From contig NZ_CP145732.1 of the NCBI RefSeq assembly GCF_036884845.1, forward strand, positions 3,534,001-3,598,000: DNA of 64,000 nucleotides, read 5' to 3'. This DNA comes from Pseudomonas sp. MAG733B. GTDB taxonomy: Bacteria > Pseudomonadota > Gammaproteobacteria > Pseudomonadales > Pseudomonadaceae. Position numbers and translations under genes: made by a program. Positions 45,918 to 63,525 of the stretch are shown here, in pieces (position 1 is the stretch's first letter; each line of letters opens with the position of its first letter). Under the pieces are notes generated by a model. That model did not search any database and was not told the origin of the DNA. It was given only the letters and a program-made list of their open reading frames with translations.

Positions 45918-48278
45918 TTATTTCAACGCCGGATCCCCCATGTTCATTTTCTTCCAGCCCTGCAACAGCACCTGAGCCTTGGGCTCCTGTCCGTTATCCA
46001 GGTAGTACTGGATCAGCGACAACCGCGCGTTGCGGTTGGCAGGCTGTACTTTCAACAGCCTTTCCAGCTCTTCACAGGCCTGATCAATCTTGCCGCTGTC
46101 ATGCAGCGCCACCGCCAGAACGTAACCATACTGCGGGCTCTGCGGTTCCAGTTGTGCGGCTTTGCGCAGGTATGGCATGGCCTGATCCGCTTTGCCGGCA
46201 CGTACCAGCGACAAGCCCTGAGTGTGTTGCAGCAGGGATGCGTCCGGATGTTCCTTCAGGCTTTGTGCGAGTAGCGCCTGAGCCTCCGCGCTACGGCCAT
46301 TGGCTTCCAGCCACTGCACCAGCGTCACCAGCGCCGGGTAGAAATCCGGGTCCCGCTGGAGCGAGGTGTGGAGCAGACCTTCGACCTCGCCGCTGCGACC
46401 GCTGGCCTGATACAACATTGCGAGGTTGAGATTGGCTTCGGCACGTTCAGCCAGACTCTTTTGCACCGCTTCGTACTCTCCGATGGCGGCATTCCAGCTG
46501 TCTTGCGCAGTGCCCAAGCCGTTGCGCGCCACGCTGAGCAAGTCCCGGGCCGCCGCAATGCGCACGGCTTTCACCGGGTCGCTTAACAACGGCGTCAACA
46601 GTGGAGCGCGCTCCGGTGGCGGCAGGAACGCGCTGATTGCGCGAATGGCGCTTTCGCGCACTTGCGGCGCGGAGTTGCTCAAGTCCTTGGTGGCCAGTTT
46701 CAGCGCTTGTTCACTTGGGTACATCGGCAACTCGGTCAGCAGGGTCGCCCGTTGAATCGCCGGCAGGTTGCTGCGTTGCAGTTGTTCATACAAGGCTTGC
46801 GCCGCGCCGGGCTGGCCGTTGCGAATCAGCCACAGGCTTTCGTCGTAACGCGGGGCTTGCGCCGTACCTGCGCTGTTCCACAACTTGAACTGCTCGGTGA
46901 CCTTGTCGCCGGCCTTGCCTTGGTGGCAAGTCAGGCAGGCGTCCGGCGTACCGAGTTTCTTCGCCCGTTCGGGGTTGGGAATGCTGAAGCTGTGGTCGTG
47001 GCGGAAATCATTGCCCATGTAAAACTTGCCGGGCATGTGGCAATCGATGCACTGCGAACCCGGTTGGCCCATGGTGTGGCGGGTGTGTTCAACGGAGTCG
47101 TAGTTTTTCGCTAGCAGGCCTTTGCCGTCTACGCCTTCCACCGAAGTCTTGCCCGCCGTGTTGTGGCATTGCAGGCAAACGCCGTTGCCCGGCGCCTTGA
47201 GTTGAGTGCTGTGGGGGTTGTGGCAATTGCTGCAGCGCACACCCTTGTCGAACATTTTGCTTTGGGCGAAGGAGCCGTGTTCGAACACTTCATCCTTGAT
47301 TTTGCCGTCCAGCGCATACAGTTCGCGGGTCAGGGTGCTTGGCAGGTAATCATCCATCAGCCGGTTGCCGACGGTGAAACCATCGCCCAGCGGCGCGCGA
47401 CGGGAATGGCAGCGCGCACAGGTTTCGATCTCGACGGTGGCGTTCTTGTCCTTGAGGTCGACGGCGAAACCGGCGTGGATCAGGTCGGTTTTCTTCGCCG
47501 TCCATTCCAGGTGGTTGGAAGCAGGACCATGGCAGGCCTGACAGCCGACGCCGAGGCTGTTCCACTGGCTGTCGAAGGTATTTTTGACCGCATCGAAATT
47601 GCGCTTGTAACCGGTGGTGTGGCACTCGACGCACATGAAGTTGGCGTTCTGGCTCGGTTTGCTCCAGTGCAGCGGGTCCTTGAAGGTCACGCCCTGGCCC
47701 GGATAGAGATGAAACCAGCGATTCTTTTCTGTATCCCAGGCCACACCGAGGGCTTGCAAGCGGCCCTCGCCAACCTCGATCAGATATTGCTGCAACGGTG
47801 CGATGCCAAAGGTATAGGCGACCTTGAAGTCGGCGTTCTTGCCATCGATGCCGGGCGTATTGACCCAGAAACCGTCGTCCTTGCGCGAGAAACGGGTGGT
47901 TTCGTTTTCCGCCTTGAAGGTGACGTTGTTGAAATCGCCGAGCATGGTTTCGGCGTTGGCTTCCTGCATTGCCAACTGGTGATGAGAACCTTGCCAGTCC
48001 TTGACCTGGGCGCTGTGACAGCCCTGGCATTGTTGCTCGTCGACCATTTTTGCCGGCGCCAGGGCAACCGGTTGGGGTTGCGGTTTGGCCGGTTGAACGG
48101 CGGGCGCAATGGTCGGCGCATAGGTCACGGGAGCCGGTGTGCTGCTGAGCAGGAACCAGCCGATACCGGCGACAGCCAGGAGCAGGGCGCCAATGGTGAC
48201 AGGGAACAGGTAGCGACTAATCAGGTTGGGACGCGAATCAGGGTTTGGGTTTGCTGCTTTATTTTTATGTTTCGGCAT
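45918..48278 (-). CDS. Octaheme cytochrome c with C-terminal TPR repeats
   Basis: A 786-residue protein with one membrane anchor (residues about 22-46) and eight CxxCH haem sites (CQGCH at 84, then CVECH, CQACH, CARCH, CSNCH, CLQCH, CIDCH, CLTCH), spread to about residue 450. The C-terminal part consists of HEAT- or TPR-like repeats (EVEGLLHTSLQRDPDFYPAL, YLRKAAQLEPQSPQYGYVLA). It resembles cytochrome c554-type multihaem proteins of the cytochrome c7 fold, anchored and facing the periplasm. It is the last gene of the minus-strand array, 99 bp after the MFS-spermidine synthase gene. The electron donor and acceptor are unknown. Confidence 0.9.
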   Translation of the reverse strand: MPKHKNKAANPNPDSRPNLISRYLFPVTIGALLLAVAGIGWFLLSSTPAPVTYAPTIAPAVQPAKPQPQPVALAPAKMVDEQQCQGCHSAQVKDWQGSHHQLAMQEANAETMLGDFNNVTFKAENETTRFSRKDDGFWVNTPGIDGKNADFKVAYTFGIAPLQQYLIEVGEGRLQALGVAWDTEKNRWFHLYPGQGVTFKDPLHWSKPSQNANFMCVECHTTGYKRNFDAVKNTFDSQWNSLGVGCQACHGPASNHLEWTAKKTDLIHAGFAVDLKDKNATVEIETCARCHSRRAPLGDGFTVGNRLMDDYLPSTLTRELYALDGKIKDEVFEHGSFAQSKMFDKGVRCSNCHNPHSTQLKAPGNGVCLQCHNTAGKTSVEGVDGKGLLAKNYDSVEHTRHTMGQPGSQCIDCHMPGKFYMGNDFRHDHSFSIPNPERAKKLGTPDACLTCHQGKAGDKVTEQFKLWNSAGTAQAPRYDESLWLIRNGQPGAAQALYEQLQRSNLPAIQRATLLTELPMYPSEQALKLATKDLSNSAPQVRESAIRAISAFLPPPERAPLLTPLLSDPVKAVRIAAARDLLSVARNGLGTAQDSWNAAIGEYEAVQKSLAERAEANLNLAMLYQASGRSGEVEGLLHTSLQRDPDFYPALVTLVQWLEANGRSAEAQALLAQSLKEHPDASLLQHTQGLSLVRAGKADQAMPYLRKAAQLEPQSPQYGYVLAVALHDSGKIDQACEELERLLKVQPANRNARLSLIQYYLDNGQEPKAQVLLQGWKKMNMGDPALK

Positions 48279-48377
48279 TGCGACTTCCGTAGTCCAGGTG
48301 CGTTTGCCGTCAGGCGCGCGTTCATGCTCGTTGCAGCTTTGCCGGATGGGCGACGTGTGTCAAATGATGGCGATCTC

Positions 48378-50891
48378 TCATTCGCCGACAAACCACCGGT
48401 AATACGGATTCCCGCCATCGCCGCGCATCACTTCGCGAATATCCCGCGCCCAGGCATCACGATCGCCGTCATAGGCATGCAGGCTTGCCCGATAAAACTG
48501 CATCAGGCGTTGCCGATGCACGTTAATGCGCTCGTTGAAGCCAGCATCGGCATTCACCAGTGGTGGTTCGATGTGCAAGTCCAGCAGCGCCGGCAGCACA
48601 CGAGTGATTTCCTTGGCCCGGACCCATGGCGCGTACTCGATACGCGGTTGATCGTCGGTTACCGGTTGCGCGTCAGCGGCGAAGCGTTCCAGGCCAGCGC
48701 GGTCAGTCACCCAGGTCGCGAGCAATGCGGCGGCCGAACCGATGCCGACATCCTGCAAGGTGCTGCGTACGCTGTCTTGCTGGAAGCGTTGATTGATTTT
48801 CGCGGCATCCAGTTCAATCGGCTCCATCGAACCCACCAGCAGCATCTCGTGGAACTCGCTGGTCCACAGATTGGCGTACGGGAATACGTCGAGGAAACTG
48901 CGCACCAACGCGCGCGAGTCGTCGATGTTCTGTGTCGGCAGCGGTAGCCACTGAGCCACCAGACCCTCTTTTTGTAGACGGCTGGCGGCCAGTTGATAGA
49001 AATCGCGGCTGTACAGATTCACCACGCCGGCAGCAGAGGGCGGCGGCGGTTCGAGAGTGATCAGGTCATAGCGTTGTGGATTGCGCAGCAGTTCCTGGCG
49101 ACCGTCACGCAAGCGCACATCGACACCGGGATTGGCGGCGGCGTTGAAGTTGCCCTTGAACAGCGGCGCGGCCTTGACCACCGAGGGCAGCAGTTCGGCG
49201 ACGACACGATGTTCAAGGCCTGGGTACTGCGTCAGCGCGCCGGCGGTGATGCCTGTACCAAAGCCGATCACCAGCGCCGAGCGCGGTTCAGCGTTGTGGA
49301 TCAGCAGCGGCAACAGCGCCTGAATGCGCATGTAGCGCAGGGATGGCATGGCGTCACCGGTGTTGGATACGCCCTGGATATACAGGCGCTCGAATGTTTT
49401 TTGCCCCTTGCCCTGGGTGACCACGGCGACGGTTCCGCCGCGTCCTTCTTCATAGAACGTCAACGTGCCGTTGCGTGCGCCGGGCAGCAGGCTGGCCAGT
49501 TTGTTGACCGGGGTAAAGACGGCCAATGCGACGGCCAACAAACCGATTGCGATCACTGCCTGCCGCCGACCTTTCTTGACCCCATGCCCCTTGCGCACTG
49601 CAAAGTAACCGATTCCGGCGGCAATGATCGCCAACAGGCCCAAGGTACGAACCAGTCCCAGCAAAGGGATCAGCACGAACCCGCAGAGCATCACCCCGAC
49701 AATTCCGCCGAGGGTATTGAAAGCCACGACCTCACCGACATTGCGGCCCACATGGTCACGGCCGACGCTCAAGCGCAGGGCCACGGGAAAGGCCGCGCCG
49801 AGCAGCAAGGTCGGTACAAAAACGATGCTCAACGCCGCCACCGCAAAGCGCGCGCTCATGCCCAGCAATTCACTGGCGCCGAACGACAGCACCCACGCTT
49901 CGACGACGCTTTGGGCAACTATCAGCCATCGTCCGAGCAGAGCGATTTCCAGCAACGCGATCAGCCCGGCACCGGCAATCAGCAAACCGAATACGCCCCA
50001 GGGATCGCGCAGGCGATCGACCCGGCGGGCAAGCAGGGCGCTGCCGAGGAACAGTCCGGCGAGATAAGTCGCCAAGACCACGGCAAACGCATAAGTGCGC
50101 GTGCTCATGAACTGCACGATTGATTGCGACCAGACCACTTCGTAGCCCAGCGCCACGCCCCCGGCAATCGAATACAGCCACAGGGCCAGGCGATCCGGTG
50201 CCTTGTCGGCGTGGTGCTTCACCGTTGTTTCGTCAGGTATGGAGCGGTGACGTTGAAACCACAACGCGCCAGCGGCGGCCAGCAGGTTGAGCATCGCGGC
50301 GGCCAGGGCACTGCCGCGCACACCGAGGGTGGCAATCAGCACAAACGCGGCGAGCAAGGTGCCGGCAATGGCGCCGGCGGTATTCGCGGCATACAGGTGC
50401 CCACCGGCCTTGCCCAGTTGTTGCGGGTCAGTCGCAAGAGAACGAACCAGTACGGGCAGGGTGCCGCCCATCAGCAGTGCCGGGACGCCCACCAGCAAAA
50501 ACGGCAACACCCACGCCATGAGGCCGATATGTTGTTCCAGCCAGGCAAACGGGCTGGCCGCCAGACTCAGGGCGAACGTCGCGCCAACACCGAGTATCGC
50601 CACCAACACTTCCAGCCCGGCGTACAACAGAACCGGTTGCTGCAACTTGTCCGCCCAGCGTCCGAACAGCAAGCCACCCAACGCCAGGCCGGCAAAAAAC
50701 GCGCTGATCCCGGTGGTGATGGCGTACACCTCCACACCGACCACCAATGACAGCTGCTTGATCCACAGCACCTGATACACCAGCGCCGCGGCACCGGAGA
50801 CGAACAGCAACAGGGCGGGGATCAACAGCGCCGGGGAGGCGACGTGGGGGGCAGGTATGGCCGACGACTTGCTGGCGACACGTGAGGACAT
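48378..50891 (-). CDS. MFS-type membrane domain fused to a spermidine-synthase-like domain
   Basis: An 837-residue protein from ATG 50891. Twelve or more membrane helices fill about residues 15-510 and include MFS-like loops (GLALGGLLFGRWADKLQ). The C-terminal domain is a Rossmann methyltransferase fold of the spermidine synthase family (SALVIGFGTGITAGALTQYP near residue 540). Such fusions are common in Pseudomonas and other bacteria but of unknown function. The synthase domain lacks an obvious polyamine-binding signature that I could verify. It lies between the sulfatase and the octaheme cytochrome. Confidence 0.88.
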   Translation of the reverse strand: MSSRVASKSSAIPAPHVASPALLIPALLLFVSGAAALVYQVLWIKQLSLVVGVEVYAITTGISAFFAGLALGGLLFGRWADKLQQPVLLYAGLEVLVAILGVGATFALSLAASPFAWLEQHIGLMAWVLPFLLVGVPALLMGGTLPVLVRSLATDPQQLGKAGGHLYAANTAGAIAGTLLAAFVLIATLGVRGSALAAAMLNLLAAAGALWFQRHRSIPDETTVKHHADKAPDRLALWLYSIAGGVALGYEVVWSQSIVQFMSTRTYAFAVVLATYLAGLFLGSALLARRVDRLRDPWGVFGLLIAGAGLIALLEIALLGRWLIVAQSVVEAWVLSFGASELLGMSARFAVAALSIVFVPTLLLGAAFPVALRLSVGRDHVGRNVGEVVAFNTLGGIVGVMLCGFVLIPLLGLVRTLGLLAIIAAGIGYFAVRKGHGVKKGRRQAVIAIGLLAVALAVFTPVNKLASLLPGARNGTLTFYEEGRGGTVAVVTQGKGQKTFERLYIQGVSNTGDAMPSLRYMRIQALLPLLIHNAEPRSALVIGFGTGITAGALTQYPGLEHRVVAELLPSVVKAAPLFKGNFNAAANPGVDVRLRDGRQELLRNPQRYDLITLEPPPPSAAGVVNLYSRDFYQLAASRLQKEGLVAQWLPLPTQNIDDSRALVRSFLDVFPYANLWTSEFHEMLLVGSMEPIELDAAKINQRFQQDSVRSTLQDVGIGSAAALLATWVTDRAGLERFAADAQPVTDDQPRIEYAPWVRAKEITRVLPALLDLHIEPPLVNADAGFNERINVHRQRLMQFYRASLHAYDGDRDAWARDIREVMRGDGGNPYYRWFVGE

Positions 50892-50977
50892 GGATTTGTT
50901 GCCTTGTGCAATGAGCAAAGTAAACATCAATCAATGCAGGAGCTGCCGGGGAATGTGTTTGCACTCCCTGGAATTGG

Positions 50978-51003: not shown

Positions 51004-51015
51004 GGTCAAGCGGTC

Positions 51016-52602
51016 TTACTGTGCAGGTTGATTCTTCATTTTTTCAGCGATTTTGGCATCTACCGCGGCACGCACCTGGTCAATACTGAAGCTGGCCGGT
51101 TTTTGGCTCGGTGGGTACTCGACGAATGTTTCGAGGAACGCGGCGGATTTCATTACCGCGATCTCGGTCAGGTAAACGTTCTTGGTGGTCCAGTCGTAGT
51201 ACTGATCGGAAACCACGTCGGCACGCTCATACGGGTCCATGCGCAGGTTGAAGATTTTCGGCACCCGCAGACACACGAAAGGCTCGCTCCAGACCTTGAA
51301 GCCACCCGGAGCCCGCTGTTCGCAGAACACCGCTTTCCAGTTGCCGTAACGCATCGATACCAGCATGCCGTCGTCGTTGAAGTAGTAGAACTCCTTGCGT
51401 TCGCCTTTCGGCGCCTGGCCGGTCAGGTAAGGCAGTTGGTTGTAACCATCCAGATGCACCTTGAAGTTGTTGCCTCCCGATACCGGGGCCCAACCCTTGA
51501 GCAGTTTGTCCTTCACGCCAGTGTCGCCCGCAGCGGCGAGCAAGGTCGGGAACCAGTCAAGCCCCGAGAACATTTCGTTGGAGACCTCCCCCGGTTTGAT
51601 CTTGCCCGGCCAACGGATCATCGCCGGTACGCGATAAGCACCTTCCCAGTTGGAGTTTTTCTCGTTTCGGAACGGCGTGGTCGCAGCGTCCGGCCAGGAG
51701 AACTGGTTCGGGCCATTGTCGGTGGTGTAGACGACGATGGTGTTGTCGGTGACCTTGAGGTCATCGAGGGTTTTCAGCAGTTTACCGACGTCGCCGTCAT
51801 GCTCAAGCATGCCATCGGCGTAATCGTTGCCGGGCATGCCGCTCTGGCCCTTCATCGATTCACGCACATGGGTGAACAAGTGCATGCGCGTAGTGTTCAT
51901 CCAGACGAAGAACGGTTTGTCCGCCTTGACCTGCTTCTCGATGAACGCCTGCGCTGCCGCCGTGGTTTCGTCGTCGATGGTTTCCATGCGCTTGGTGTTC
52001 AAGGCACCGGTGTCCTCAATCTTGCCGTCGGCAAAACTGTGGATCACACCGCGTGGTGAGGCCGCCTTGACGAATTCCGGGTCATCCTTGGGCCAGTACG
52101 GACGCTCGGGTTCTTCCTCGGCGTTGAGGTGGTAAAGGTTGCCGAAGAACTCGTCGAAGCCGTGATTGGTCGGCAGGTATTCATCCCGGTCGCCCAGATG
52201 GTTCTTGCCGAACTGGCCGGTCGCATAACCCTGGGACTTGAGCGCCTGGGCAATGGTGATGTCGCGTTTCTGCAAGCCCACTGGCGCGCCCGGAATACCG
52301 ACTTTCGACAAGCCGGTACGCAATGGTGTCTGCCCGGTGATGAACGACGACCGCCCAGCGGTGCAACTGTTCTCCGCGTAATAGTCGGTGAACATCATGC
52401 CTTCCTTGGCGATGCGGTCGATGTTCGGCGTCTTGTAGCCGACCACACCCATGGAATAGGCGCTGATATTGGTCTGGCCGATGTCATCGCCGAAGATCAC
52501 CAGAATGTTGGGTTTTTCGGCGGCCCCGGCAGTCGCCGAAATCGCCATGACCGAGGTCGCCACCAAGGCGAGCTTCGGTAGCCACTTGCGTATGCGAGTC
52601 AT
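51016..52602 (-). CDS. Periplasmic Cys-type sulfatase (arylsulfatase family)
   Basis: A 528-residue protein with a Sec signal peptide (cleavage near AGA-AEK) and the alkaline-phosphatase-fold sulfatase domain. Metal-binding ILVIFGDDIGQTN (Asp39, Asp40) precedes the formylglycine site CTAGR at 80-84. This is the Cys type, with Ala instead of the usual Pro (CxAxR). No formylglycine-generating enzyme or AtsB-type maturase is encoded in the window. AAAGGAG lies seven bases upstream of ATG 52602. It ends a string of genes headed by the MoxR/VWA module; aryl or alkyl sulfate ester hydrolysis is likely, but the substrate is unknown. Confidence 0.92.
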   Translation of the reverse strand: MTRIRKWLPKLALVATSVMAISATAGAAEKPNILVIFGDDIGQTNISAYSMGVVGYKTPNIDRIAKEGMMFTDYYAENSCTAGRSSFITGQTPLRTGLSKVGIPGAPVGLQKRDITIAQALKSQGYATGQFGKNHLGDRDEYLPTNHGFDEFFGNLYHLNAEEEPERPYWPKDDPEFVKAASPRGVIHSFADGKIEDTGALNTKRMETIDDETTAAAQAFIEKQVKADKPFFVWMNTTRMHLFTHVRESMKGQSGMPGNDYADGMLEHDGDVGKLLKTLDDLKVTDNTIVVYTTDNGPNQFSWPDAATTPFRNEKNSNWEGAYRVPAMIRWPGKIKPGEVSNEMFSGLDWFPTLLAAAGDTGVKDKLLKGWAPVSGGNNFKVHLDGYNQLPYLTGQAPKGERKEFYYFNDDGMLVSMRYGNWKAVFCEQRAPGGFKVWSEPFVCLRVPKIFNLRMDPYERADVVSDQYYDWTTKNVYLTEIAVMKSAAFLETFVEYPPSQKPASFSIDQVRAAVDAKIAEKMKNQPAQ

Positions 52603-52675
52603 CTGACTTGCTCCTTTTGCTCACTTGCGTCGCCTGATGCGACAAACGTTTATTGCAGTCCTGCGTTACGGTTTT

Positions 52676-53704
52676 TTATTGCACTTGCTCGGTAGCGGGG
52701 GCGTCGAACGGGTAGATCCGCCGCCATTCGGCAGCCATGTCGACGACGGTCCAGCCGCGGGATTTCGCTTCGTCCAGGGCTTTGTCCAGACGACCGATTT
52801 TCGATTCACGGTCATAGGCCCATTCGCGCTTGGCGTCGGTGTGATGCACCAGGCCCATGAAGCGCTTGCCCGTTCCGGCGGCGGTCCACTGCAGCATTTG
52901 CAGGTCGCCGTCGGAGTTGCCGAAGGCGAGAATTGGTCGACGCCCGATCACCGCATCGATGCTGACCGGTTTGCCCGGGCCGTCGTCGTTGTGCGCCAGT
53001 TTCGGCGTGCGCATGATCGACGCCTTGCCATCCTTGTAATCAAACGTCGTGACGAAAGTCGTGCCGATGACTTGCTCGGGCGGAATGCCGTAGACCTTTT
53101 CGGCGAAGGCGCGCATGAACCCAGTGTCGCCGCCGGAAACGATGTAGGTCTTGAAGTCCTGGCTGCGCAGGTAGTCGAGCATTTCCAGCATCGGCTGGAA
53201 GATCATTTCGGTGTAAGGCTTGCCGGTTTTCGGGTGGCGGGCCTGGGAAAGCCAGGTCTTGGCGTAGTCGTCGAAGGCTTCGGTGGTCATGCCGGTGTGA
53301 GTCGCGCCGAAGATCTTCATCAAGCCTTCCATGCCGGTGGCTGCGAGGGCCTGGTGATCGTTTTCCAGCACTGCCTTGAACGGTTGGGTGGTTTTCCATT
53401 CCGGGTGTTGCGGCGCGGTGCGCTTGACCTCTTCGAGGGCGAACAGAAACTCGAAGTACATCGGTTGCTCGCTCCACAAGGTGCCGTCGTTGTCGAACAC
53501 AGCGATGCGGTCCTCGGGTTTGACGAAGTCCTTGCTGCTTTGATCGGTCACGGCCTGGACGAACTCGATGATGTTCTTTTTTGACGGGCCGTCGTTCCAG
53601 GACGGCAATGGCTCGGCGGCCTGAACCAGCAAGGGCAGGCTCAGGGCGAGTGTCAGTAGAAACTTAAACCCGTGAAGTTGGCGTAGCGATATCGGGTTCA
53701 TCAT
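52676..53704 (-). CDS. Exported HAD-family phosphatase
   Basis: A 342-residue protein with a signal peptide (about residues 1-29) and HAD motifs: DNDGT (motif I, catalytic Asp), IVSGGDTGFM (motif II region), and GNSDGDLQML (motif IV). It resembles phosphoserine-phosphatase-like acid phosphatases. The start is ATG 53704 (a second ATG follows at once); AAGGA is six bases upstream, and it overlaps the BatD-like stop. Export to the periplasm together with the sulfatase suggests action on extracellular esters. Confidence 0.88.
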   Translation of the reverse strand: MMNPISLRQLHGFKFLLTLALSLPLLVQAAEPLPSWNDGPSKKNIIEFVQAVTDQSSKDFVKPEDRIAVFDNDGTLWSEQPMYFEFLFALEEVKRTAPQHPEWKTTQPFKAVLENDHQALAATGMEGLMKIFGATHTGMTTEAFDDYAKTWLSQARHPKTGKPYTEMIFQPMLEMLDYLRSQDFKTYIVSGGDTGFMRAFAEKVYGIPPEQVIGTTFVTTFDYKDGKASIMRTPKLAHNDDGPGKPVSIDAVIGRRPILAFGNSDGDLQMLQWTAAGTGKRFMGLVHHTDAKREWAYDRESKIGRLDKALDEAKSRGWTVVDMAAEWRRIYPFDAPATEQVQ

Positions 53705-55124: not shown

Positions 55125-56705
55125 TCATGGCTTCGCCCCCGCCTGATCCTGCAAGCTGAACTTCTGTTTCAGGAACTTCGCCGGCGATGTGCTGAGGTTC
55201 TGCAACCACTGTTCATCCGATGCTGCCTGTTCGGTCTCTACGGCTTTGCTCTGGCCTTTGCCCGGTGCCTTGTCCATTTTGATTTCGTCGGGTTTGACCT
55301 CCGGCGCATTCTGCTCGGCGCTTTCGGTGTCTTTCTGCAAGGCGATGGCCAAGGCCAGGTTGGCGGTGGCCTCGGGGAATTGCGGCTGCAATTTCAGCGC
55401 CTGGGTGTAGGCCGCAATGGCCTGATCGAATTTGAAGCGGCGCACGTAAATGTTGCCCAGATAGAAATACGCCTGCGGCGTTTGCAGGCGCGCGAAACTG
55501 GCCAGCGCCAGATCGAAATCGGCGGCGTTGTAGGCGGCGATACCTTTCCAATAGGGGTCGACAAAAAGTGCGGCGGCCTGCGGGAGGTGCTCGTGCTCAA
55601 AGGCCCAGCGACCTTGCTGGTTCCGAGTGAAAAAAGCATCGGTGAGTGCATTGGCCTGCGCTGGAGCCGGTTGCCATCCGAGCCCGACAACCAGCACAAA
55701 GCCCGCCATCCAGTTCAGGCTCCAGCCCTTGCGCACACTGAAGAACGCAATCAGCAACAGCGGCCAGGACAACCAGTAGCCGGCATCTTTCCAGTGCAGT
55801 TCGCGCTGTTCATCACTGGCAGCCTGAAAGTGTTGCTGGGCGTGCAGTTCGACCCAGTCGAGGTCGTCGTTGTTGAGGGTCAGGCTGCCCAGCGGCGCAC
55901 CTACCGCAGAGGCTAATTGCTTGAGTGCACCCTGATCGAAACTGCCCAGTTCAGGCCGTCCATTGCTGTCGGTGCGTGGCTGGCCACTGGCATCGCGGAT
56001 GATGCCGCCGTCCTCGCTACCGACGGCCAGGATCAGCACTTGCAGGGCGCTGCCATCGAGTTTCTTGTCCAGGTCGGACAGCGCTGAAGTGTCTGCGCCG
56101 TCGGTGATCAGCAGAAGGGTGCCGGGTGATTTTTCAGCGGCCAGCAGACGTTTGGTCTGGTCGATAGCGGCGCCGACATCTTTGCCCGGTTTGCCGATCA
56201 GATCGGTGCTCAGCGCCTGGATGAACGTGTCGAGCAAGGCCGGGTCATCGGTCGGTGGCAGCACCAGATGGGCACTGCCCGCGTACGCGATCAGCGCGTT
56301 GCGGGCGCCGGCGCGACGCTGGATCAAGTCGTGCAGCTTGTGTTTTACCGCTTCCAGTCGCGACGGTTGTACATCGCTGGCGTCCATGGAAGGCGACAGG
56401 TCAATGGCGAAGATCAGCGGCGCGCGGTTTTCCAGAAAGTCCGGTCGATCCTGTTCCCAAGTGGGGCCGGCAGCCGCAATCGCACCCAACACCAGCAGTG
56501 CGCAGACCAGATGCACCGGACGCAGCCAGTGCTGATCCTTCGGCGTGATCAGCAGGTGCGGCAGCAGGTGTTCGGCGATGTTGCTGCGCAAGCGCCGCTG
56601 CAGATCCTGGCTACGTCGCCAGAGCAGCGGCAGCACGGCGGCGAAGGGCAGCAGCAACAGCCAGAGTGGACGCAGGAAGTGGAAATCGCTGAGGTTGATC
56701 TCCAT
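55125..56705 (-). CDS. BatB-like VWA/TPR membrane protein
   Basis: A 526-residue protein with membrane segments (about 15-28, 65-80 and 310-345), a VWA domain with intact MIDAS DLSPS at residues 102-106, and C-terminal TPR-like repeats (YFYLGNIYVRRFKFDQAIAA). A Glu/Lys-rich tail follows. It begins one base after the BatA-like stop. This is the intact counterpart of the first gene in the window, which has lost the MIDAS. The TPRs probably bind a client or partner. Confidence 0.9.
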   Translation of the reverse strand: MEINLSDFHFLRPLWLLLLPFAAVLPLLWRRSQDLQRRLRSNIAEHLLPHLLITPKDQHWLRPVHLVCALLVLGAIAAAGPTWEQDRPDFLENRAPLIFAIDLSPSMDASDVQPSRLEAVKHKLHDLIQRRAGARNALIAYAGSAHLVLPPTDDPALLDTFIQALSTDLIGKPGKDVGAAIDQTKRLLAAEKSPGTLLLITDGADTSALSDLDKKLDGSALQVLILAVGSEDGGIIRDASGQPRTDSNGRPELGSFDQGALKQLASAVGAPLGSLTLNNDDLDWVELHAQQHFQAASDEQRELHWKDAGYWLSWPLLLIAFFSVRKGWSLNWMAGFVLVVGLGWQPAPAQANALTDAFFTRNQQGRWAFEHEHLPQAAALFVDPYWKGIAAYNAADFDLALASFARLQTPQAYFYLGNIYVRRFKFDQAIAAYTQALKLQPQFPEATANLALAIALQKDTESAEQNAPEVKPDEIKMDKAPGKGQSKAVETEQAASDEQWLQNLSTSPAKFLKQKFSLQDQAGAKP

Positions 56706-56706
56706 C

Positions 56707-57699
56707 TCAGGCCTCCTGCCGTTGACGGGCGAGGGTCAGGCGCGGACGCAGCAGCGCGCACAGGTGATAGAACGCGAGCAGTGCGATTGCAACGCCAAGC
56801 GGCCACCAGAACAGATCCCGTTTGGGCTGATGGCTGAGGGTTTTCACTTGATGCGGGGTGAGTTGGTCGAGGGTGCTGTAGACCTGATTCAGCGCATTAC
56901 GGTCTTCGGCGCGGAAGAAGCGCCCACCGGTGGTCTTGGCAATGTCCTGCAAGCCTTGCAGATTCACTTTGGCTTCCCCTTCGGCATTCGGGTCGCCAAT
57001 GCCGATGGTGTGAATCACCACGCCCTTGGCCGCCGCCATGGCCGCTGCATGATCCGGCGTGATGGCGCTGCTGGTGTCGTTGCCATCGGTGAGCAGAATC
57101 AGGACCTTTTCCTGTTCATGGGCCTGGTCCAGCAGCTTCAGGCTCAACCCGATCGCATCGCCGATGGCCGTGTTGGGGCCGGCCATGCCGATCCCCGTGT
57201 CGTCCAGCAGCAACGACAGGCTGGCGTGGTCAAGGGTCAGCGGCGCCTGCGGATACGCGCCGCTGCCGAACACGATCAGCCCGAGGCGATCCTCTTTGCG
57301 CTTGTCGATAAAGCCGTGGACCACTTCCTTTACGGCGGCCAGACGATTGATCTTCTGGCCATTGGCGTCGGTGAAGTCGGTGGTCTCCATGGACTGGGAA
57401 AGGTCGATGGCGAGCATCAGGTCGCGCACCGGTTGCTGGCGTTCGATGGGCTTTTCCACGAGCACTGGCCGGGCCGCGGCCAGCAGCAAGAGCCCACACA
57501 CCAACAGGTTCAACAGCAACTGCCAGCGATTGCTGCGGGTGCCGGCCTGGCTCGGTGCCTCACCCACCGCCCGGCTCATGGCATTGAAAAACGGCACGCG
57601 CACGGCACTGCGCGCTTCACGGTAATCGGGCAGGTAGCGATAACCCAGCCACGGCAATGGCAGTAGCAGTAACAGCCAGGGGTAATCAAGCTGCCACAT
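56707..57699 (-). CDS. BatA-like VWA domain membrane protein
   Basis: A 330-residue protein starting at ATG 57699, which overlaps the DUF4381 gene by 14 bp. The upstream in-frame start lies in the DUF4381 gene and its REPIN. It has membrane segments at both ends (LLLLLPLPWLGYRYLP and LGVAIALLAFYHLCALL) and a VWA domain with MIDAS DLSQS. Its layout equals the gene at 1129-2208, which marks it as the paralogue in the second MoxR operon. Confidence 0.9.
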   Translation of the reverse strand: MWQLDYPWLLLLLPLPWLGYRYLPDYREARSAVRVPFFNAMSRAVGEAPSQAGTRSNRWQLLLNLLVCGLLLLAAARPVLVEKPIERQQPVRDLMLAIDLSQSMETTDFTDANGQKINRLAAVKEVVHGFIDKRKEDRLGLIVFGSGAYPQAPLTLDHASLSLLLDDTGIGMAGPNTAIGDAIGLSLKLLDQAHEQEKVLILLTDGNDTSSAITPDHAAAMAAAKGVVIHTIGIGDPNAEGEAKVNLQGLQDIAKTTGGRFFRAEDRNALNQVYSTLDQLTPHQVKTLSHQPKRDLFWWPLGVAIALLAFYHLCALLRPRLTLARQRQEA

Positions 57700-58276
57700 G
57701 ATGACGCTCCACCCAGGTTTTGCAGGTGTCGAACAATTGTTGACGTTGTTCAGTGGGCAGGGCGCGCAGGGTTGCTTCCGGCGCGTATGCCAGCAGGGAC
57801 AGTTGCTGGCCGAAATCCGCGGGGAGCGGCTGCTTGATGTGCTGCTGGAGAAAGGCTTGCCAATCCTCTTTTCCAAGCACAGCAGGACCCTGTGGGAGCG
57901 AGCTTGCTCGCGATGAGGACGGCACATTCAGAGCAGATTTCGACTGACCGGACGCCATCGCGAGCAAGCTCGCTCCCACAGGTTTTGTGGTGTGTCTGGA
58001 GGGCATGGAAAGGGCGACGCGCTTGAGCAATTCCGGCAACTCGCGCAAGGCATTCAGATCACCACTGCGCTGCTGCAACTGCGCCAGCCGCAGCAACGCC
58101 TCGCGCCGATAACGGTCTCGCCGCCATTGCCTATGACGCCGTGCACCCAGCAGCAGCGCCGTTACCACGAGTAATGCCAGCAATACCCACCAACCCCAGG
58201 TCTGCGGCGCATAGCTGACCGGTGCCGGCAGGGCGATTTCATTCAGTTGCTCGATGCTCGGGATATTGGGGTTCAT
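57686..58276 (-). CDS. DUF4381 protein interrupted in frame by a REPIN
   Basis: A 196-residue protein starting at ATG 58276 (overlapping the DUF58 stop by ATGA). The membrane segment (WGWWVLLALLVVTALLLG) and the DUF4381 domain are clear, with KEDWQAFLQQHIKQPL matching RKWLAFLDNR of the paralogue at 2201-2695. Between SMPSRH and VLGKEDW about 35 residues are encoded by a REPIN (57889-57982). They keep the frame and lack any family counterpart. The reading frame is therefore intact but carries a repeat-derived low-complexity loop. It is expected to be soluble or membrane-tethered in the cytoplasm or periplasm like its paralogue. Confidence 0.85.
   Translation of the reverse strand: MNPNIPSIEQLNEIALPAPVSYAPQTWGWWVLLALLVVTALLLGARRHRQWRRDRYRREALLRLAQLQQRSGDLNALRELPELLKRVALSMPSRHTTKPVGASLLAMASGQSKSALNVPSSSRASSLPQGPAVLGKEDWQAFLQQHIKQPLPADFGQQLSLLAYAPEATLRALPTEQRQQLFDTCKTWVERHHVAA
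57889..57982. repeat. REPIN inside a coding sequence
   Basis: CCTGTGGGAGCGAGCTTGCT and its inverted partner, ending CCCACAGG, lie wholly inside the DUF4381 gene. The 94-bp element adds in-frame codons (VGASLLAM...SRASSLPQG). Confidence 0.92.
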
Positions 58277-59208
58277 CGTCGCCCCCCGACAAGTTTGCCC
58301 AGTTCGGCGCGCAGTTGTTCCTGTGCTTCGCTGGCGGTGCTGAACATCATCAATGGCACTTGGCTGCGGCGCAGCAGCGTGGCCACATCCTTGAGCCGTC
58401 CGCTGAGGAAATCGCCCAAAGGCTGGTGCACCTGGCGCCGTTCCACCGCCAGTTCCACCTGCAACTGGCCTTGAGTGATCAGCAGCCGGCCGTTCTTTGG
58501 CAGGTTCAGCGCCAACGGGTCGTAGACCTGCATGGCGATCACATCGTTGTGCGCCGCCAATTGGCGCATCAGCTGCAACGTACGCTCGCCTGCGCCGGCA
58601 AAGTCGCTGACGATGCAGATCAGGTGATCGTGCCCGGCCACGGCCAGGCATTGCTGCAACACCTTGTCGAGCTGGTCTTCGCCTTCGGCGTCCGGATTGG
58701 CCGCGTTCAGTTCCTGGTTCTGCTGGACGATGCGGCTGCACAGCGCTTCGATCCGCTTGCGGCTGCGCAGCGGCGCGACGCTGTCGATGCGTCGGTCGTT
58801 GAACACCATTCCGCCGACGCGGTCACCGGCGCTGAACACCATCCACGCCGCCAGGGCGCCGAGCTCGGCGGCGAGGGCGGATTTGAAGCTGCGTTGCGAG
58901 CCGAAAAACATGCTCATGCGCTGATCGACGAGTACCAACGCCGGGCGATCGCGTTCTTCGGTGAAGGTGCGCACCACCGGTTTACCGGTGCGCAGCGACG
59001 CGCGCCAGTCGAGATGACGCAAATCATCGCCGGGTTGATAGCGGCGCAACTCGTCGAAGTTCAAACCACGGCCGCGCAAGCGCGAAGCGTGGTTGCCGGC
59101 AAGAATGCTGCCTTGCGGCTGACGGGCAACAAAACTCAGGTCACGGGCCTTGAACTCCAGGGCCATCAACTGCGCCAGAGAGACATAGACCAACCCGTCG
59201 GCGTTCAT
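58273..59208 (-). CDS. DUF58 domain protein
   Basis: A 311-residue protein with the DUF58 signature YQPGDDLRHLDWRASLR and a VWA-like remainder (PALVLVDQRMSMFFGSQRS). ATG 59208 overlaps the moxR stop by ATGA, and its own stop overlaps the DUF4381 start by ATGA. It is the paralogue of 2692-3636. Confidence 0.9.
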   Translation of the reverse strand: MNADGLVYVSLAQLMALEFKARDLSFVARQPQGSILAGNHASRLRGRGLNFDELRRYQPGDDLRHLDWRASLRTGKPVVRTFTEERDRPALVLVDQRMSMFFGSQRSFKSALAAELGALAAWMVFSAGDRVGGMVFNDRRIDSVAPLRSRKRIEALCSRIVQQNQELNAANPDAEGEDQLDKVLQQCLAVAGHDHLICIVSDFAGAGERTLQLMRQLAAHNDVIAMQVYDPLALNLPKNGRLLITQGQLQVELAVERRQVHQPLGDFLSGRLKDVATLLRRSQVPLMMFSTASEAQEQLRAELGKLVGGRR

Positions 59209-60185
59209 GCAGGAATCGCCACTTTGTCGAGCAAGCGGTCGAGCACCTGATCGGCACTCACACCATCGGCCACGGCGTCATAGCTCAGTTGCAGGCGATG
59301 GCGCAGCACCGGGTGCACCACGGTGCGCACATTGTCCGGCGAAACGAAATCCTGACCCTGCAACCACGCATCGGCGCGGGCGCAACGGTCCAGGCCGATG
59401 CCGCCGCGCGGGCTGGCGCCGATGTTGATCCAGCGGCCGAGGTCGGCGTCGTAATCGGCGGGATGGCGGGTGGCGTTGATCAGGTCGATCAGATAGCGGT
59501 CGATGGCAGGGGAAACATGCACCGCGCTGACTTCCCGGCGAGCGGCGAAGATCACGTCCTGAGCCAGCGCAAAACCTTGCACCGCCGCGGTCTTCGCACC
59601 GAGGGCCTGTTCTTCTTCGCGCAACAGGCGCAGCACCTGGCTTTCGTTTTCCGCACTCGGGTAATCCAGCAGCACTTTCATCAGGAAGCGGTCCATCTGC
59701 GCTTCCGGCAGTGGGTAGGTGCCTTCCTGCTCAATCGGGTTTTGCGTGGCGACAACGATGAATAGCTCCGGCAACGCATGGCTGTTGCCGGCCACGGTGA
59801 TCTGCCGTTCTTCCATGGCTTCAAGCAGTGCAGCCTGGACCTTGGCCGGGGCGCGGTTGATTTCGTCGGCCAGGATCAGGTTGCCGAACAATGGCCCTGG
59901 CTGAAAACGGATCTCGTTTTTGCCTTCAACCTGATGCAGCACCTCGGCGCCGGTAATGTCCGAGGGCAGCAAATCCGGGGTGAACTGGATGCGGCTCATC
60001 TTTGCGTCCAAGTGTTTGGCCAGCGCCTTGACCGTGCGGGTCTTGGCCAGGCCGGGCAGGCTTTCCAGCAGCAGATGGCCGTTGGCCAACAAGCCCACAA
60101 GAATTTGGCGGATCACCTGATCCTGGCCGAGTACTGCTTCGGTAATACTCGCTTGCAAGGCGTTGAGGTCGTTGAGTGCGCTCAT
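59205..60185 (-). CDS. moxR: MoxR family AAA+ ATPase (second copy)
   Basis: A 326-residue protein with Walker A SLPGLAKT at residues 42-49 and Walker B LILADEINRAP. Its sequence layout equals that of the copy at 3642-4601. ATG 60185 has AGGAG six bases upstream, and the upstream gene's TAG sits in that ribosome site. It starts the core module moxR-DUF58-DUF4381-batA-batB-batD. Confidence 0.93.
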   Translation of the reverse strand: MSALNDLNALQASITEAVLGQDQVIRQILVGLLANGHLLLESLPGLAKTRTVKALAKHLDAKMSRIQFTPDLLPSDITGAEVLHQVEGKNEIRFQPGPLFGNLILADEINRAPAKVQAALLEAMEERQITVAGNSHALPELFIVVATQNPIEQEGTYPLPEAQMDRFLMKVLLDYPSAENESQVLRLLREEEQALGAKTAAVQGFALAQDVIFAARREVSAVHVSPAIDRYLIDLINATRHPADYDADLGRWINIGASPRGGIGLDRCARADAWLQGQDFVSPDNVRTVVHPVLRHRLQLSYDAVADGVSADQVLDRLLDKVAIPA

Positions 60186-60193
60186 GTCAGCTC

Positions 60194-61141
60194 CTAGAAA
60201 AACGCCAGGGTCATGTTGACCGCGATGCCGTTGCCTTCCGGACGGTTTTTGGTGTCGAACTCCGGCACCCAGCGCAGACTCAGGTTGGCCTGGGCGTCGG
60301 CGAACTTGCCGGTCCAGCCCACCACCGGGCCGGCGCCCACCGAGCGCCCGCGAAAACCGCTGGTGGAGCCTGACCCGGAGTCATCGTTGATCTGCTGGAT
60401 GTAGCCCGCCGCAAGACCCGCGGCCCAGCCATTGCCGAAGCCGTGGGTCCAGAGTGCGTCGAGGGTGAAGAGGTCGCCGTTCTGATAATCCGTGGCGTCG
60501 TTTTCGGTGTAGAACTCCAGCCCGCTGGACAGCGTGAGTTCGCCGCCTTTGCCGTCAAGGTGAGTGAAGGCCACGGTGGGCATGAAGGTGTAGGTGTTCT
60601 GTCCGGGGTTGGCCAGGCGATTATCGTTATAGGCACCTGTCGGCACGTAGATCGGCAGGGAAAACGAGATGTGATTGACTTCGTCGAAGTGATATCCCGC
60701 AGCGATCGGCGTCACCAGCATGTCGGCGAATTGAGTGCCGGTATCTTCCGTGCCCAGGGTCCTGCCTCGGGGGCCAGTGATGTTGGCGGTAACGTCGGTG
60801 TACTGCACCGGCACGCCGACCGCCGACGCGTAGTTCCAGCGACCTTTGCCGGTGTCCCAGACGTGGGTGAAGTTGGCCATGGTGTAGGAAACCTTCATGT
60901 CCAGCCCGGTACTCAAGGCACCCACGATCGGTACTTGTGAATTGCCTTTCAGATCGCCGTCATACCAGATACTGGTCAGGGACATCACCCAACCGGGTTC
61001 CGGCGGCACGATCCCGGCATTGGAGAACACTTGCTGGCCGGTGATCGGCCGGCCGACCCCGCCTTCAACCGCCAGCGCCAGCGGGCTGCCGCCGACCATG
61101 CACAGCGCCAGCAACGGGCGCACTACGTAGGGCTTGATCAT
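60194..61141 (-). CDS. SphA/MetA-type outer-membrane protein
   Basis: A 315-residue protein with a signal peptide (cleavage near ALA-VEG) and a beta-barrel pattern typical of the 'MetA-pathway of phenol degradation' (SphA/SalD) family. The C-terminal residue is Phe (MTLAFF). It overlaps the DUF1254 gene by ATGA and lies 8 bp from moxR. Proteins of this family are assumed to take up aromatic or other hydrophobic compounds. The linkage to sulfatase and phosphatase suggests uptake of an esterified compound. Confidence 0.85.
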   Translation of the reverse strand: MIKPYVVRPLLALCMVGGSPLALAVEGGVGRPITGQQVFSNAGIVPPEPGWVMSLTSIWYDGDLKGNSQVPIVGALSTGLDMKVSYTMANFTHVWDTGKGRWNYASAVGVPVQYTDVTANITGPRGRTLGTEDTGTQFADMLVTPIAAGYHFDEVNHISFSLPIYVPTGAYNDNRLANPGQNTYTFMPTVAFTHLDGKGGELTLSSGLEFYTENDATDYQNGDLFTLDALWTHGFGNGWAAGLAAGYIQQINDDSGSGSTSGFRGRSVGAGPVVGWTGKFADAQANLSLRWVPEFDTKNRPEGNGIAVNMTLAFF

Positions 61142-62556
61142 GACTGACTCCGCTTACTGATTTGTTGGGTGACCGGCGTCAGCAACGGCATTTTCCATTG
61201 GCCATTGGTGACTTCCGGTTTGGGCAGGTACAGGCGCAAGATGCCGTAGAACGGGCCGCTCGGCGCAGGCAGCCAGTTGCTTTGCAAGTCCTTGGCCGGC
61301 GCTTTCTTTTGTAAGTAGAGGGTCAGCCCACCGTCAGCGTCGAGCTTGAGGTCGGGCAACATGCGCGAGTTGATCAGGTAGCGATTGAGCGGGTTGGCCA
61401 CCAACAGCTTGTTCTTGCCGTCGTACATGGTCAGCGACCAGAAGGCGTCGGCCGGGGGCAGGGCGCCCTTGTCGAAATGCAGGGTGTAGTCGTGTTTCGA
61501 GGCATCGACCGGTTGGCCGTCCTTGTCGACGAAGTAGCCAATGTAATTGGCCTCTTCGGCGGAGTTGCCGAAGATCCCCATGTTGGCACCGGCGTAGCGG
61601 TACAGGTAATTGCCCTTGAGGTGATCGCGGGTGCCAAAAAAATCGCCGCTGGTGACTTCGTGGGTATCCACCCTGGTTTTCTTGAACCCGGCGAATTCTG
61701 CCTTGGCGTCGCTGATACCGTCCTCCAGCGCCTTGCGTTGATCGGCGCTCAGTTTGGTCAGGTTGAATGGCTTGCCGGCTTCGATACCGATGGTCTTGAA
61801 GCGCGCGAGCAGGTCTTTTTCCACGTCCTGGGCCGGGGCGAAAGTCAGCATGAAATTCAGGTAGCGGAACAAGTCCGGGGTGTCGCTCATGGTTGGCGAG
61901 GGCTTCGGCCAGTCAATTTTCGGTGCGGCGGGCGGCGCCTTGTGTTTGTCGTACTGGCTGAGGGTTTCCACCTGGTAACCCTTCTGGATCTGCTTGACCT
62001 TGGCCAGGTCCTGTTCATCGAACAGCTGCGTGCGGTACAGCGCATAGGCAATGTTGCTTTCACTGCGCAGCAGCCGGTCGATGTTCTGCGGTTGCCGACC
62101 CTTCCAGTTGGGGCCGGCAATCATGAAATGGCCTCCATTGTTGCCGGTGCTGCGGGTGCCCAGGTAAGCGAAGTTCTGTGTGTAGGCGTCGATCAACTGC
62201 ACTGAGTAGTAACGGTGTTCTTCGATGGGCGGCAGGGTCAGCACCAGCGGTTCGGCGCGCAGGTCCATCCAGACGAAAGAGTAGGGCGTGTCGGCATTCG
62301 GCGTGACGAACGCGGTGTCCTTGGCGGTGAAGGCTGTGGCGGTATTGCCGATCTGGTTGAACGGCGCCTTGAAGTTCGAGCTCTTCTTGTCCACGGCCTG
62401 GGTGTAGAGGGTCTTGTACATTTCGACCACCGGGAAGCCATACAAATAGGCTTCCTTGGCAATGCCCCGGGCTTGCTCCGGGGTAGCGGTGAAATCGGCC
62501 CACGCACTGGTGCTCAGGGAAAGCGCGAGTGTAGTGAGCAGCAGGCGGTTACGCAT
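61138..62556 (-). CDS. DUF1254/DUF1214 periplasmic protein
   Basis: A 472-residue protein with a signal peptide (cleavage near AWA-DF). DUF1254 fills the N-terminal half (IAKEAYLYGFPVVEMYKTLY) and DUF1214 the C-terminal part (AFWSLTMYDGKNKLLVANPL). Family members are exported proteins of unknown function, common near sulfatases and outer-membrane proteins. The ATG lies 26 bp after the small upstream gene, and the stop overlaps the next gene. Confidence 0.9.
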   Translation of the reverse strand: MRNRLLLTTLALSLSTSAWADFTATPEQARGIAKEAYLYGFPVVEMYKTLYTQAVDKKSSNFKAPFNQIGNTATAFTAKDTAFVTPNADTPYSFVWMDLRAEPLVLTLPPIEEHRYYSVQLIDAYTQNFAYLGTRSTGNNGGHFMIAGPNWKGRQPQNIDRLLRSESNIAYALYRTQLFDEQDLAKVKQIQKGYQVETLSQYDKHKAPPAAPKIDWPKPSPTMSDTPDLFRYLNFMLTFAPAQDVEKDLLARFKTIGIEAGKPFNLTKLSADQRKALEDGISDAKAEFAGFKKTRVDTHEVTSGDFFGTRDHLKGNYLYRYAGANMGIFGNSAEEANYIGYFVDKDGQPVDASKHDYTLHFDKGALPPADAFWSLTMYDGKNKLLVANPLNRYLINSRMLPDLKLDADGGLTLYLQKKAPAKDLQSNWLPAPSGPFYGILRLYLPKPEVTNGQWKMPLLTPVTQQISKRSQS

Positions 62557-62582
62557 AAAACTTCCTTATTCAACCTTTGGCG

Positions 62583-62723
62583 TCATTGCCCGGCCGTAAT
62601 GCTGACAAGCGTCGAGTGCTGTTCGGTGTGTTGCGGGTGGGTATCCAGGTCATGGGCGCCAACACCGCAACTGACGAACGTGGTCATCAGGCTGAAGATG
62701 GCTGCGCGAATGGCAATCTGCAT
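62583..62723 (-). CDS. 46-residue exported peptide
   Basis: ATG 62723 has AGGA eight bases upstream, giving 46 residues. The N-terminal 20 or so are a signal-like hydrophobic stretch (IRAAIFSLMTTFVSCGVG), possibly a lipoprotein signal with Cys at the lipobox-like FVSCG. The mature part is short and His-rich (AHDLDTHPQHTEQHS), suggestive of metal binding. It sits between the OM-like gene (gap 10 bp) and the DUF1254 gene. Size and context favour a real gene, but no family is recognised. Confidence 0.55.
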   Translation of the reverse strand: MQIAIRAAIFSLMTTFVSCGVGAHDLDTHPQHTEQHSTLVSITAGQ

Positions 62724-62733
62724 GGCAATGTCC

Positions 62734-63525
62734 TCACTTTCCAAACGTGACGTTGAGTCCGGCGTACAGCGTGAACTTCGGCAAGTCATCGCCTTTGTGG
62801 TCCACGGTCCACTGTGGTTCGATAAAGACGTTGAGGACATTGGGCCCGGATTTCCACACCTTGCCGCCACCCAGACCGAGGGGGATGTAATGGGTGTCGT
62901 TCTTCAGGTCGAAGGTCCAGATCCCGGTGGAGCGCAGGTACCAGCCTTTTTCCAGGTTATGGATGATGAAAGGCTGCATGGTTGCGCTTTCGACGTGGGG
63001 CCGGTCATGGTCGCCGGCAAAGGAACTCTGGTACTGCACCAGCGCGCCCAACAGGCCGCGAGGCGAGGAATCGATCGCTACGGCAGCCAGTCCCGCCTGC
63101 CATTTGCCGGTGCCGAGTTCGTCCTGATCGGCGGTGGGCGCAGTAATCATCGGGCCAACGCCCAACTGCACGCCTTCGGTCTTGAGCAGGAAAATATCGA
63201 ACAAGTTCAGATCACCTTCGCCGGTGCTGTAGCCGCTGTTCGGGTCCGGGCGCGTGCTGATCGGCGCCGTGACACGTATCAATTGCGGGACGCCAATGAA
63301 ATCGTTGGGCGCAATCGGCAGCGTGCCGCGCACCAACAGGTCATTGGTATGAATATTGGAATCGTAGAACTTCGGGGTGTAGTAATCCTGCAGGCTCATC
63401 CCCGGCGCGATGTTCAACGGGTTGTTGCTTTTGTTGGCTGTCTCGGCGTCGTCCGCCTGAGCAAAAATGAAAGGCGCAAGCGAACTCACCAGAATAACGG
63501 CGCCCATCCCCATTTTTTTCAACAT
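62734..63525 (-). CDS. Outer-membrane-like hypothetical protein
   Basis: A 263-residue protein starting at ATG 63525 with GGGGGA upstream. It has a signal peptide (cleavage near AQA-DDA) and a repeated beta-strand pattern ending in an aromatic-rich C-terminus (FTLYAGLNVTFGK). This suggests an outer-membrane barrel of the SphA/porin-like type. It is the first gene of the minus-strand array that runs to 45918, so the operon promoter should lie upstream, in the 63526-63852 gap. No substrate is indicated. Confidence 0.8.
   Translation of the reverse strand: MLKKMGMGAVILVSSLAPFIFAQADDAETANKSNNPLNIAPGMSLQDYYTPKFYDSNIHTNDLLVRGTLPIAPNDFIGVPQLIRVTAPISTRPDPNSGYSTGEGDLNLFDIFLLKTEGVQLGVGPMITAPTADQDELGTGKWQAGLAAVAIDSSPRGLLGALVQYQSSFAGDHDRPHVESATMQPFIIHNLEKGWYLRSTGIWTFDLKNDTHYIPLGLGGGKVWKSGPNVLNVFIEPQWTVDHKGDDLPKFTLYAGLNVTFGK

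Follow-up and report, generated by a model that had tools for sequence, protein, structure and literature searches.

The window analysed here, a stretch of 64,000 nucleotides from Pseudomonas sp. MAG733B (bases 3534001-3598000 of a single-contig genome of 6.65 Mb), carries on its minus strand an array of 14 reading frames that includes a six-gene MoxR/DUF58/DUF4381/VWA/VWA-TPR/BatD machine of the MoxR-Bat type. Comparing this array with its counterparts in other genomes, we found that the stable unit in Pseudomonas is the machine together with a Cys-type sulfatase, and that the DUF1254 protein, two outer-membrane-like proteins (OM1 and OM2), the HAD phosphatase, a fused MFS/spermidine-synthase-like protein and an octaheme cytochrome are separable from the machine. 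That the machine stays with one apparently exported sulfatase suggests that it switches this enzyme on, and we give an about even chance to the reading in which the six genes constitute a dedicated MoxR-Bat unit activating the sulfatase encoded beside it. The HAD, DUF1254, outer-membrane and MFS fusion proteins are accessory.

The linkage was assessed in 80 named loci, all from Pseudomonas, which are the best 80 of 150 relatives of the window DUF1254 protein obtained with that single query. The complete machine is present in 45 of them, a recurrence beyond chance, with identical gene order in every case, and the sulfatase is in view in 43 of these full-machine loci, the other two (L070 and L088) ending inside the HAD gene. 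Four loci display a partial machine (L063, L067, L080 and L081, of which L067 and L080 are cut by contig ends), and in 31 none of the six machine genes exceeds half length, many of these harboring a different DUF1254 copy. When the sulfatase was followed instead, at an identity of at least 82%, the machine adjoined it in all eight Pseudomonas genomes of the relatives sample (G000, G002, G009, G011, G015, G017, G021 and G023). The stretch fetched from G023 holds a reduced set of machine, sulfatase and cytochrome, with neither the HAD gene nor the MFS fusion. The initial annotation had presented the array as one system of 14 genes serving several enzymes, and had named frequent separation of its parts as what would speak against this; the neighbourhood survey separates the DUF1254, OM1, OM2, HAD, MFS fusion and cytochrome genes, and a 14-gene system is rejected since each of these parts, or the machine, is found in the absence of the other. 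Its broader idea, a machine coupled to exported enzymes, is supported for the sulfatase, an enzyme expected to act on sulfate esters (the 8/8 linkage, six decayed loci described below and three other families), and is not supported for the separable HAD and DUF1254 proteins.

In the six decayed loci (L051, L059, L063, L078, L081 and L331, the last from G005) the machine is broken or missing altogether, and the stretch examined contains no sulfatase match, a genome-wide search for a second sulfatase being limited to G005. Across the whole G005 genome, no sulfatase exceeds 48% identity, and the only MoxR genes are the two other copies. Read by eye, the sequence of L051 passes from the opening codons of moxR to the end of batD. 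Considering that the HAD gene, located between the machine and the sulfatase, is kept in L051 and L331, two losses are needed in these loci. Only scraps of the MFS gene or the cytochrome are left in L075 and L085, where the sulfatase is likewise unseen. About 3.5 kb of other DNA (L331:6091-9629) occupies the place of the sulfatase and MFS genes in G005, between the HAD gene and the cytochrome.

To place the window MoxR among its relatives, we used a tree of 31 of the 46 MoxR matches, those with a fetched locus. The eight linked MoxRs (four from Pseudomonas and those of G025, G027, G033 and G034) form one group with a support of 94/89, and the adjoining clade of 15 MoxRs, which we take without proof to be the housekeeping MoxR, contains another MoxR from every one of these eight genomes. 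Genomes G025, G027 and G033, from three other families of the order, have machine, sulfatase and cytochrome clustered, each in a different arrangement. In the case of G034, MoxR, DUF58, VWA, VWA-TPR and BatD could be identified and a small frame takes the DUF4381 position; the machine genes and the cytochrome, which follows BatD, lie around 18 kb from the sulfatase. The stretches fetched of these four genomes gave no matches to HAD, MFS, DUF1254, OM1 or OM2.

A possible but less likely explanation is an ordinary neighbourhood, in which a general cell-envelope MoxR-Bat machine has fallen into a gene cluster that breaks down sulfated or phosphorylated compounds and shares with it a promoter and a fate, but no mechanism. 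The six machine genes are indeed the usual MoxR-Bat set, Bat operons elsewhere have no known function according to PMC3557215 (this and the other articles given by PMC number are cited from excerpts of their text), and the sulfatase type occurs without a linked machine in many genomes of the class. However, the linked MoxR constitutes a separate group that accompanies the same sulfatase and cytochrome across families of differing gene order, and the joint loss around a kept HAD gene in L051 and L331 also speaks against this reading.

The octaheme cytochrome could also be considered as the client of the machine, which would then serve in its assembly or haem loading, with the sulfatase as a bystander. 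The order of genes in G034, where the cytochrome and not the sulfatase sits next to BatD, favours this idea, as does the adjoining position of cytochrome and machine in G025, G033 and G015. Against it, the cytochrome is full length and in an open frame in five loci that have lost the machine (L051, L059, L078, L081 and L331, with 8, 8, 8, 7 and 8 haem motifs, respectively), and no machine gene was seen at the loci retrieved for the remaining cytochrome hits of the class-wide sample, several of which are short contigs. This makes the cytochrome a very improbable client. A class-wide sample of 369 genomes, the MAG733B genome included, contained the sulfatase in 15 (threshold E 1e-120), the cytochrome in 29 (E 1e-45) and both in 9, a co-occurrence with a Fisher p of 1.2e-7 that is uncorrected for kinship. 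Outside the order, no machine was found in the fetched neighbourhoods of sulfatase or cytochrome, several of the cytochrome loci being short contigs, and none was found at the cytochrome loci of G031 and G032, from other families of the order. The cytochrome also lies near sulfatases of other kinds (G277, G379 and G383). Since it outlives the sulfatase it is a partner at most, and the cytochrome is probably a frequent partner of this sulfatase type and not a client of the machine.

The closest solved structure to the window sulfatase is 7aj0 (E 3.5e-55), that of PsFucS1 from subfamily S1_13, with which the signature cysteine, the arginine and an Asp-Asn pair align; the signature here is CTAGR instead of CxPxR, and the subfamily is that of the nearest structure and not a SulfAtlas assignment. 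Relatives of the window sulfatase carry an SCTAGR cysteine signature, which fits the S1 consensus (C/S)-x-(P/A)-x-R (PMC6189696). The MAG733B genome encodes at least four Cys-signature sulfatases. A second sulfatase close to that of the window is located at L016:18067-19632, about 490 kb away, with a CTPGR-type sulfatase around 6 kb from it.

Type I sulfatases need a formylglycine, made by FGE or anSME (PMC6189696, PMC8379841, PMC3920027), and E. coli is thought to modify such cysteines by a third, unidentified system (PMC6189696, PMC8379841). We therefore looked for both maturases. The sole PF03781 protein of the MAG733B genome is PvdO (5hha, E 3e-146), which lacks the FGE cysteine pair, and no cysteine-pair FGE is found in any of the 12 machine genomes, where all PF03781 hits listed were aligned and G033 has none. 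A third sulfatase maturation route has reportedly been suspected since a study of 2007. Matches to anSME above the cut-off were absent from 21 genomes, including the 12 with the machine, and from 12 others, the search control exceeding the cut-off in 2 of 14 genomes. An anSME-like hit in the MAG733B genome was rejected at 107.8 bits, against a cut-off of 349; its neighbours are presumably quinohemoprotein amine dehydrogenase genes. The array proteins themselves gave no match to FGE (PF03781) or radical SAM families. The FGE query matched in 3 of 30 genomes (G202, G235 and G251), all with the cysteine pair, which no other aligned PF03781 protein carries, only best hits having been aligned for the class genomes.

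Among 28 genomes with the sulfatase, G005 with its 48% identical sulfatase included, the machine occurs without FGE in 12, FGE without the machine in three, both in none and neither in 13, the cytochrome being present in nine of these 13 (G005, G036, G042, G081, G190, G233, G301, G322 and G405). The absence of the machine from G042, G201, G301 and G322 refers to fetched neighbourhoods, some of them short contigs, as these genomes lay outside the MoxR search. The idea that the machine replaces FGE everywhere was rejected, FGE being missing from most genomes with this sulfatase type regardless, and some having neither. In G235 (L153) OM1, sulfatase, HAD and FGE genes form one run, the sulfatase and the OM1 relative being 43% and 35% identical to those of the window, and G202 displays a sulfatase-FGE-OM2 run. 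Both genomes contain other MoxR genes, none in the linked group, two of the four in G202 falling outside the tree. These two cases place accessory genes of the window with FGE where the window has the machine, an arrangement that is suggestive only. The G235 FGE (L153:6746-8002) has a lipoprotein-like start (LTAC, by eye), which hints at formylglycine formation outside the cytosol.

These observations bear on a more specific proposal, in which the MoxR-Bat machine, alone or with the cytochrome, matures sulfatases in bacteria that lack FGE and anSME, by presenting or remodelling the exported enzyme in such a way that its signature cysteine becomes formylglycine at the membrane. With the cytochrome, the two together would oxidise that cysteine and represent the third maturation system. 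The SCTAGR signature of the sulfatase relatives, the 12 machine genomes without cysteine-pair FGE or anSME over the cut-off, the FGE genes adjoining the same sulfatase type in G235 and G202, both without a linked MoxR, and the fact that the other steady neighbour is a redox protein, subject to the kinship caveat given for the class-wide sample, are all in agreement with it. Nevertheless, the machine contains no known oxidase family, the cytochrome persists where the sulfatase is lost, some genomes have the sulfatase type and neither system, and a general enzyme such as that supposed for E. coli could do the work (PMC6189696, PMC8379841). We thus regard a formylglycine-forming machine as unlikely.

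Several results weigh against a dedicated sulfatase-activating unit as well. The joint loss of neighbouring genes in the decayed loci may be one deletion, and L051 and L331 alone argue otherwise. The second sulfatase of the MAG733B genome, 87% identical to that of the window, has no machine adjoining. The support of the linked MoxR group lies below 95, and is good but not decisive. The mutual exclusion of FGE and machine (0/28 with both) is not significant (Fisher p 0.24), because FGE is rare. Moreover, G048, G124, G158 and G201 have the sulfatase without FGE, anSME or cytochrome at the thresholds used, and G081 and G405 have sulfatase and cytochrome with no MoxR at E 1e-40, no cysteine-pair FGE and no anSME over the cut-off; genomes of this sort, with the sulfatase and neither system, imply that the sulfatase type can exist without the machine.

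If the machine does activate the sulfatase, then on the model of the NorQ/NorD and CbbQ/CbbO pairs the MoxR ring would power the VWA proteins with ATP, and the membrane-anchored VWA and BatD proteins would relay this action to the exported sulfatase. The enzyme would thereby gain a needed cofactor or active-site modification, either Ca2+ loading or the change of its signature cysteine into formylglycine, folding being another candidate. What the data show is the linkage, the shared absence from decayed loci, the distinct MoxR group and the lack of a recognisable formylglycine maturase; the client, its export, the topology and the chemistry are inferred. The VWA, VWA-TPR, DUF4381 and BatD proteins have hydrophobic stretches and both metal ion-dependent adhesion sites (MIDAS) are kept, which could let a step powered by ATP act in the periplasm. 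Pairs of MoxR and VWA proteins, NorQ/NorD for example, are described as inserting cofactors into a client at the expense of ATP, the VWA MIDAS being thought to bind the client (PMC9976466).

The machine has the gene set of MoxR-Bat operons of the Bacteroides aerotolerance type (MoxR, DUF58, BatA/BatB/BatC and BatD), and shares their features: a Walker-motif AAA_3 ATPase with adjoining DUF58, two MIDAS VWA proteins, TPR and BatD. Here one MoxR group accompanies the sulfatase in four families and, in a fifth, lies next to the cytochrome, 18 kb away from the sulfatase. NorQ/NorD, CbbQ/CbbO and RavA/ViaA likewise combine a MoxR ATPase and MIDAS VWA partners beside a presumed client (PMC9976466), a position that the sulfatase takes in the eight Pseudomonas genomes, G025, G027 and G033. 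NorQ and NorD are, however, most likely cytosolic (PMC9976466), whereas VWA, VWA-TPR, DUF4381 and BatD here have hydrophobic stretches and the client looks exported. With the FGE (SUMF1) and anSME maturases the locus shares a gene adjoining a Cys-type sulfatase, the position that FGE takes in G235 and G202, but the array lacks their families. The MoxR-vWA "ternary" conflict systems (PMC7159879) have the same MoxR and VWA core, with VMAP and effector domains that were not seen here.

Each part of the locus is already known. Our search of the open-access literature gave no description of a Bat machine that has its own MoxR group and accompanies one sulfatase in four families, with a looser link in a fifth. 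The initial annotation knew of no described system with the composition of the array, which agrees with that search, where no MoxR-sulfatase system was encountered. The function of Bat proteins is described as not elucidated (PMC3557215), and here a Bat machine is tied to a single enzyme that can be assayed, in genomes that yielded neither known maturase. The locus bears on Bat function and on how sulfatases mature in the absence of FGE and anSME.

The genes of the array are listed in Table 1, with families assigned from Pfam and NCBIfam profiles. Reading frames and profiles uphold the minus-strand 14-gene array of the initial annotation: according to the list of open reading frames and their coordinates, neighbours overlap or lie 1-124 bases apart. 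Four pairs overlap by 4 bases and one by 14, four others are separated by 1, 8, 10 or 26 bases, and wider gaps of 73, 99, 110 and 124 bases separate the remaining four. Signal-like N-termini were judged by eye, without a signal-peptide program, and export of the enzymes is inferred from them; a hydropathy scan flagged the N-termini of OM1, OM2 and HAD and left those of the sulfatase, DUF1254 protein and BatD unflagged. BatD shows a single hydrophobic stretch at residues 291-319 of 437, and the cytochrome has an N-terminal one at 19-47.

Table 1. Reading frames of the array, in order of transcription from 63525 to 45918.
Feature	Coordinates	Strand	Basis and remarks
OM1, outer-membrane-like, accessory	62734..63525	-	No Pfam match
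46-residue remnant, formerly "His-rich peptide"	62583..62723	-	N-terminal stub of a lost second DUF1254-like gene
DUF1254/DUF1214 protein, accessory, signal-like N-terminus	61138..62556	-	PF06863, PF06742; 3u07 E 1e-53
OM2, outer-membrane-like, accessory	60194..61141	-	PF13557 (Phenol_MetA_deg) 1.5e-52
MoxR AAA+ ATPase	59205..60185	-	PF07726 5e-62, 208 bits (cut-off 27); LPGLAKT and DEINRA motifs
DUF58 protein of the machine	58273..59208	-	PF01882 5e-36
DUF4381 membrane protein of the machine	57686..58276	-	PF14316 2e-28; one hydrophobic stretch, 25-47
VWA membrane protein, BatA-like	56707..57699	-	PF00092 8e-19; MIDAS DLSQS; start at MWQLDYP
VWA-TPR membrane protein, BatB/BatC-like	55125..56705	-	PF13519 7e-17 and TPR families; MIDAS DLSPS
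BatD	53701..55014	-	PF13584 2.5e-05, 25.3 bits, just over the cut-off of 24.1; signal-like N-terminus by eye
HAD-type phosphatase, accessory, signal-like N-terminus	52676..53704	-	PF12710 2e-14; 4ovy E 4e-109
Cys-type sulfatase, proposed client, signal-like N-terminus by eye	51016..52602	-	PF00884 7e-52; signature SCTAGRSSFITGQ
Fused MFS/spermidine-synthase-like membrane protein, accessory	48378..50891	-	NF037959 131.9 bits (cut-off 40)
Octaheme c-type cytochrome, TPR and weak HEAT repeats	45918..48278	-	8 CXXCH; PF14522, PF13435, PF14559

Downstream, two frames on the other strand (43579-45728), which we take to be cysI and a DUF934 gene, converge on the array. A consensus scan revealed no excess of promoter-like or terminator-like sites over shuffled sequences (1 vs 3.9 and 21 vs 20.2, respectively). 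Two more MoxR genes of the MAG733B genome match AAA_3 strongly, and downstream of one stand relatives of DUF4381, VWA, VWA-TPR and BatD (L236). This second MoxR-Bat operon is located at the left end of the window, where MoxR occupies 3648-4583 and 1288-2722 holds the relatives of DUF4381 and VWA, while VWA-TPR spans the window edge and BatD falls outside; the two operons lie about 55 kb apart. The DUF4381 gene of the array contains an in-frame insert of around 38 codons (window positions ~57887-58000, minus strand), also found in L036 and L046 and absent from L038, L033, G027 and G033, which we presume to be REP-like (repetitive extragenic palindromic). OM1 is present in 40 of the 45 full-machine loci, and in 15 of the 45 (e.g. 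L037:12300-13440) an outer-membrane-type protein about 30% like OM1, not encoded in the window, lies between DUF1254/OM2 and moxR.

The 46-residue frame, which contains four histidines and had been annotated as a small His-rich peptide, is not a separate kind of gene, and its reading as a functional micro-protein was rejected, as the peptide matches the start of a full-length DUF1254 gene in relatives: judged by alignment, the frame is what remains of the N-terminus of a second DUF1254 gene that has been lost. A peptide-like start opens an intact DUF1254-like protein of 483-487 residues in L038, L040, L050 and L072, and stubs of 37-84 residues with differing ends in L036, L037, L041, L073 and L331. 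The second DUF1254-like gene, upstream of the first, is kept in 21 of the 45 full-machine loci, and the peptide matches its first ~28 residues, with at least 50% identity in 16 of the 21. A free stub is found in five (L036, L037, L041, L073 and L074), a peptide match at the head of the remaining DUF1254 gene in ten, and neither a second gene nor a peptide match was detected in nine. In L044, L047, L055, L056, L060, L062, L064, L066, L068 and L069 the one DUF1254 gene left begins with the signal-like start of the second gene, so that it resembles a fused tandem pair. Given the stubs and intact second genes of its relatives, the window represents a partly decayed version.

A scan of six proteins against defence systems with PADLOC returned weak matches only, PrimPol on the cytochrome (4e-4) and DolB on MoxR (6e-4), and the reading of the array as a defence system was set aside. 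Besides the parts already named, the recurring neighbours of sulfatase and cytochrome, over 46 locus groups, include an ABC-type ATPase group in nine genomes and smaller groups in three to five. Finally, G000:C1:3744374-3745300 encodes a stand-alone paralogue (39%) of the cytochrome's HEAT/TPR half, and a similar match is present in 19 of the 24 remaining Pseudomonas genomes in the relatives sample.

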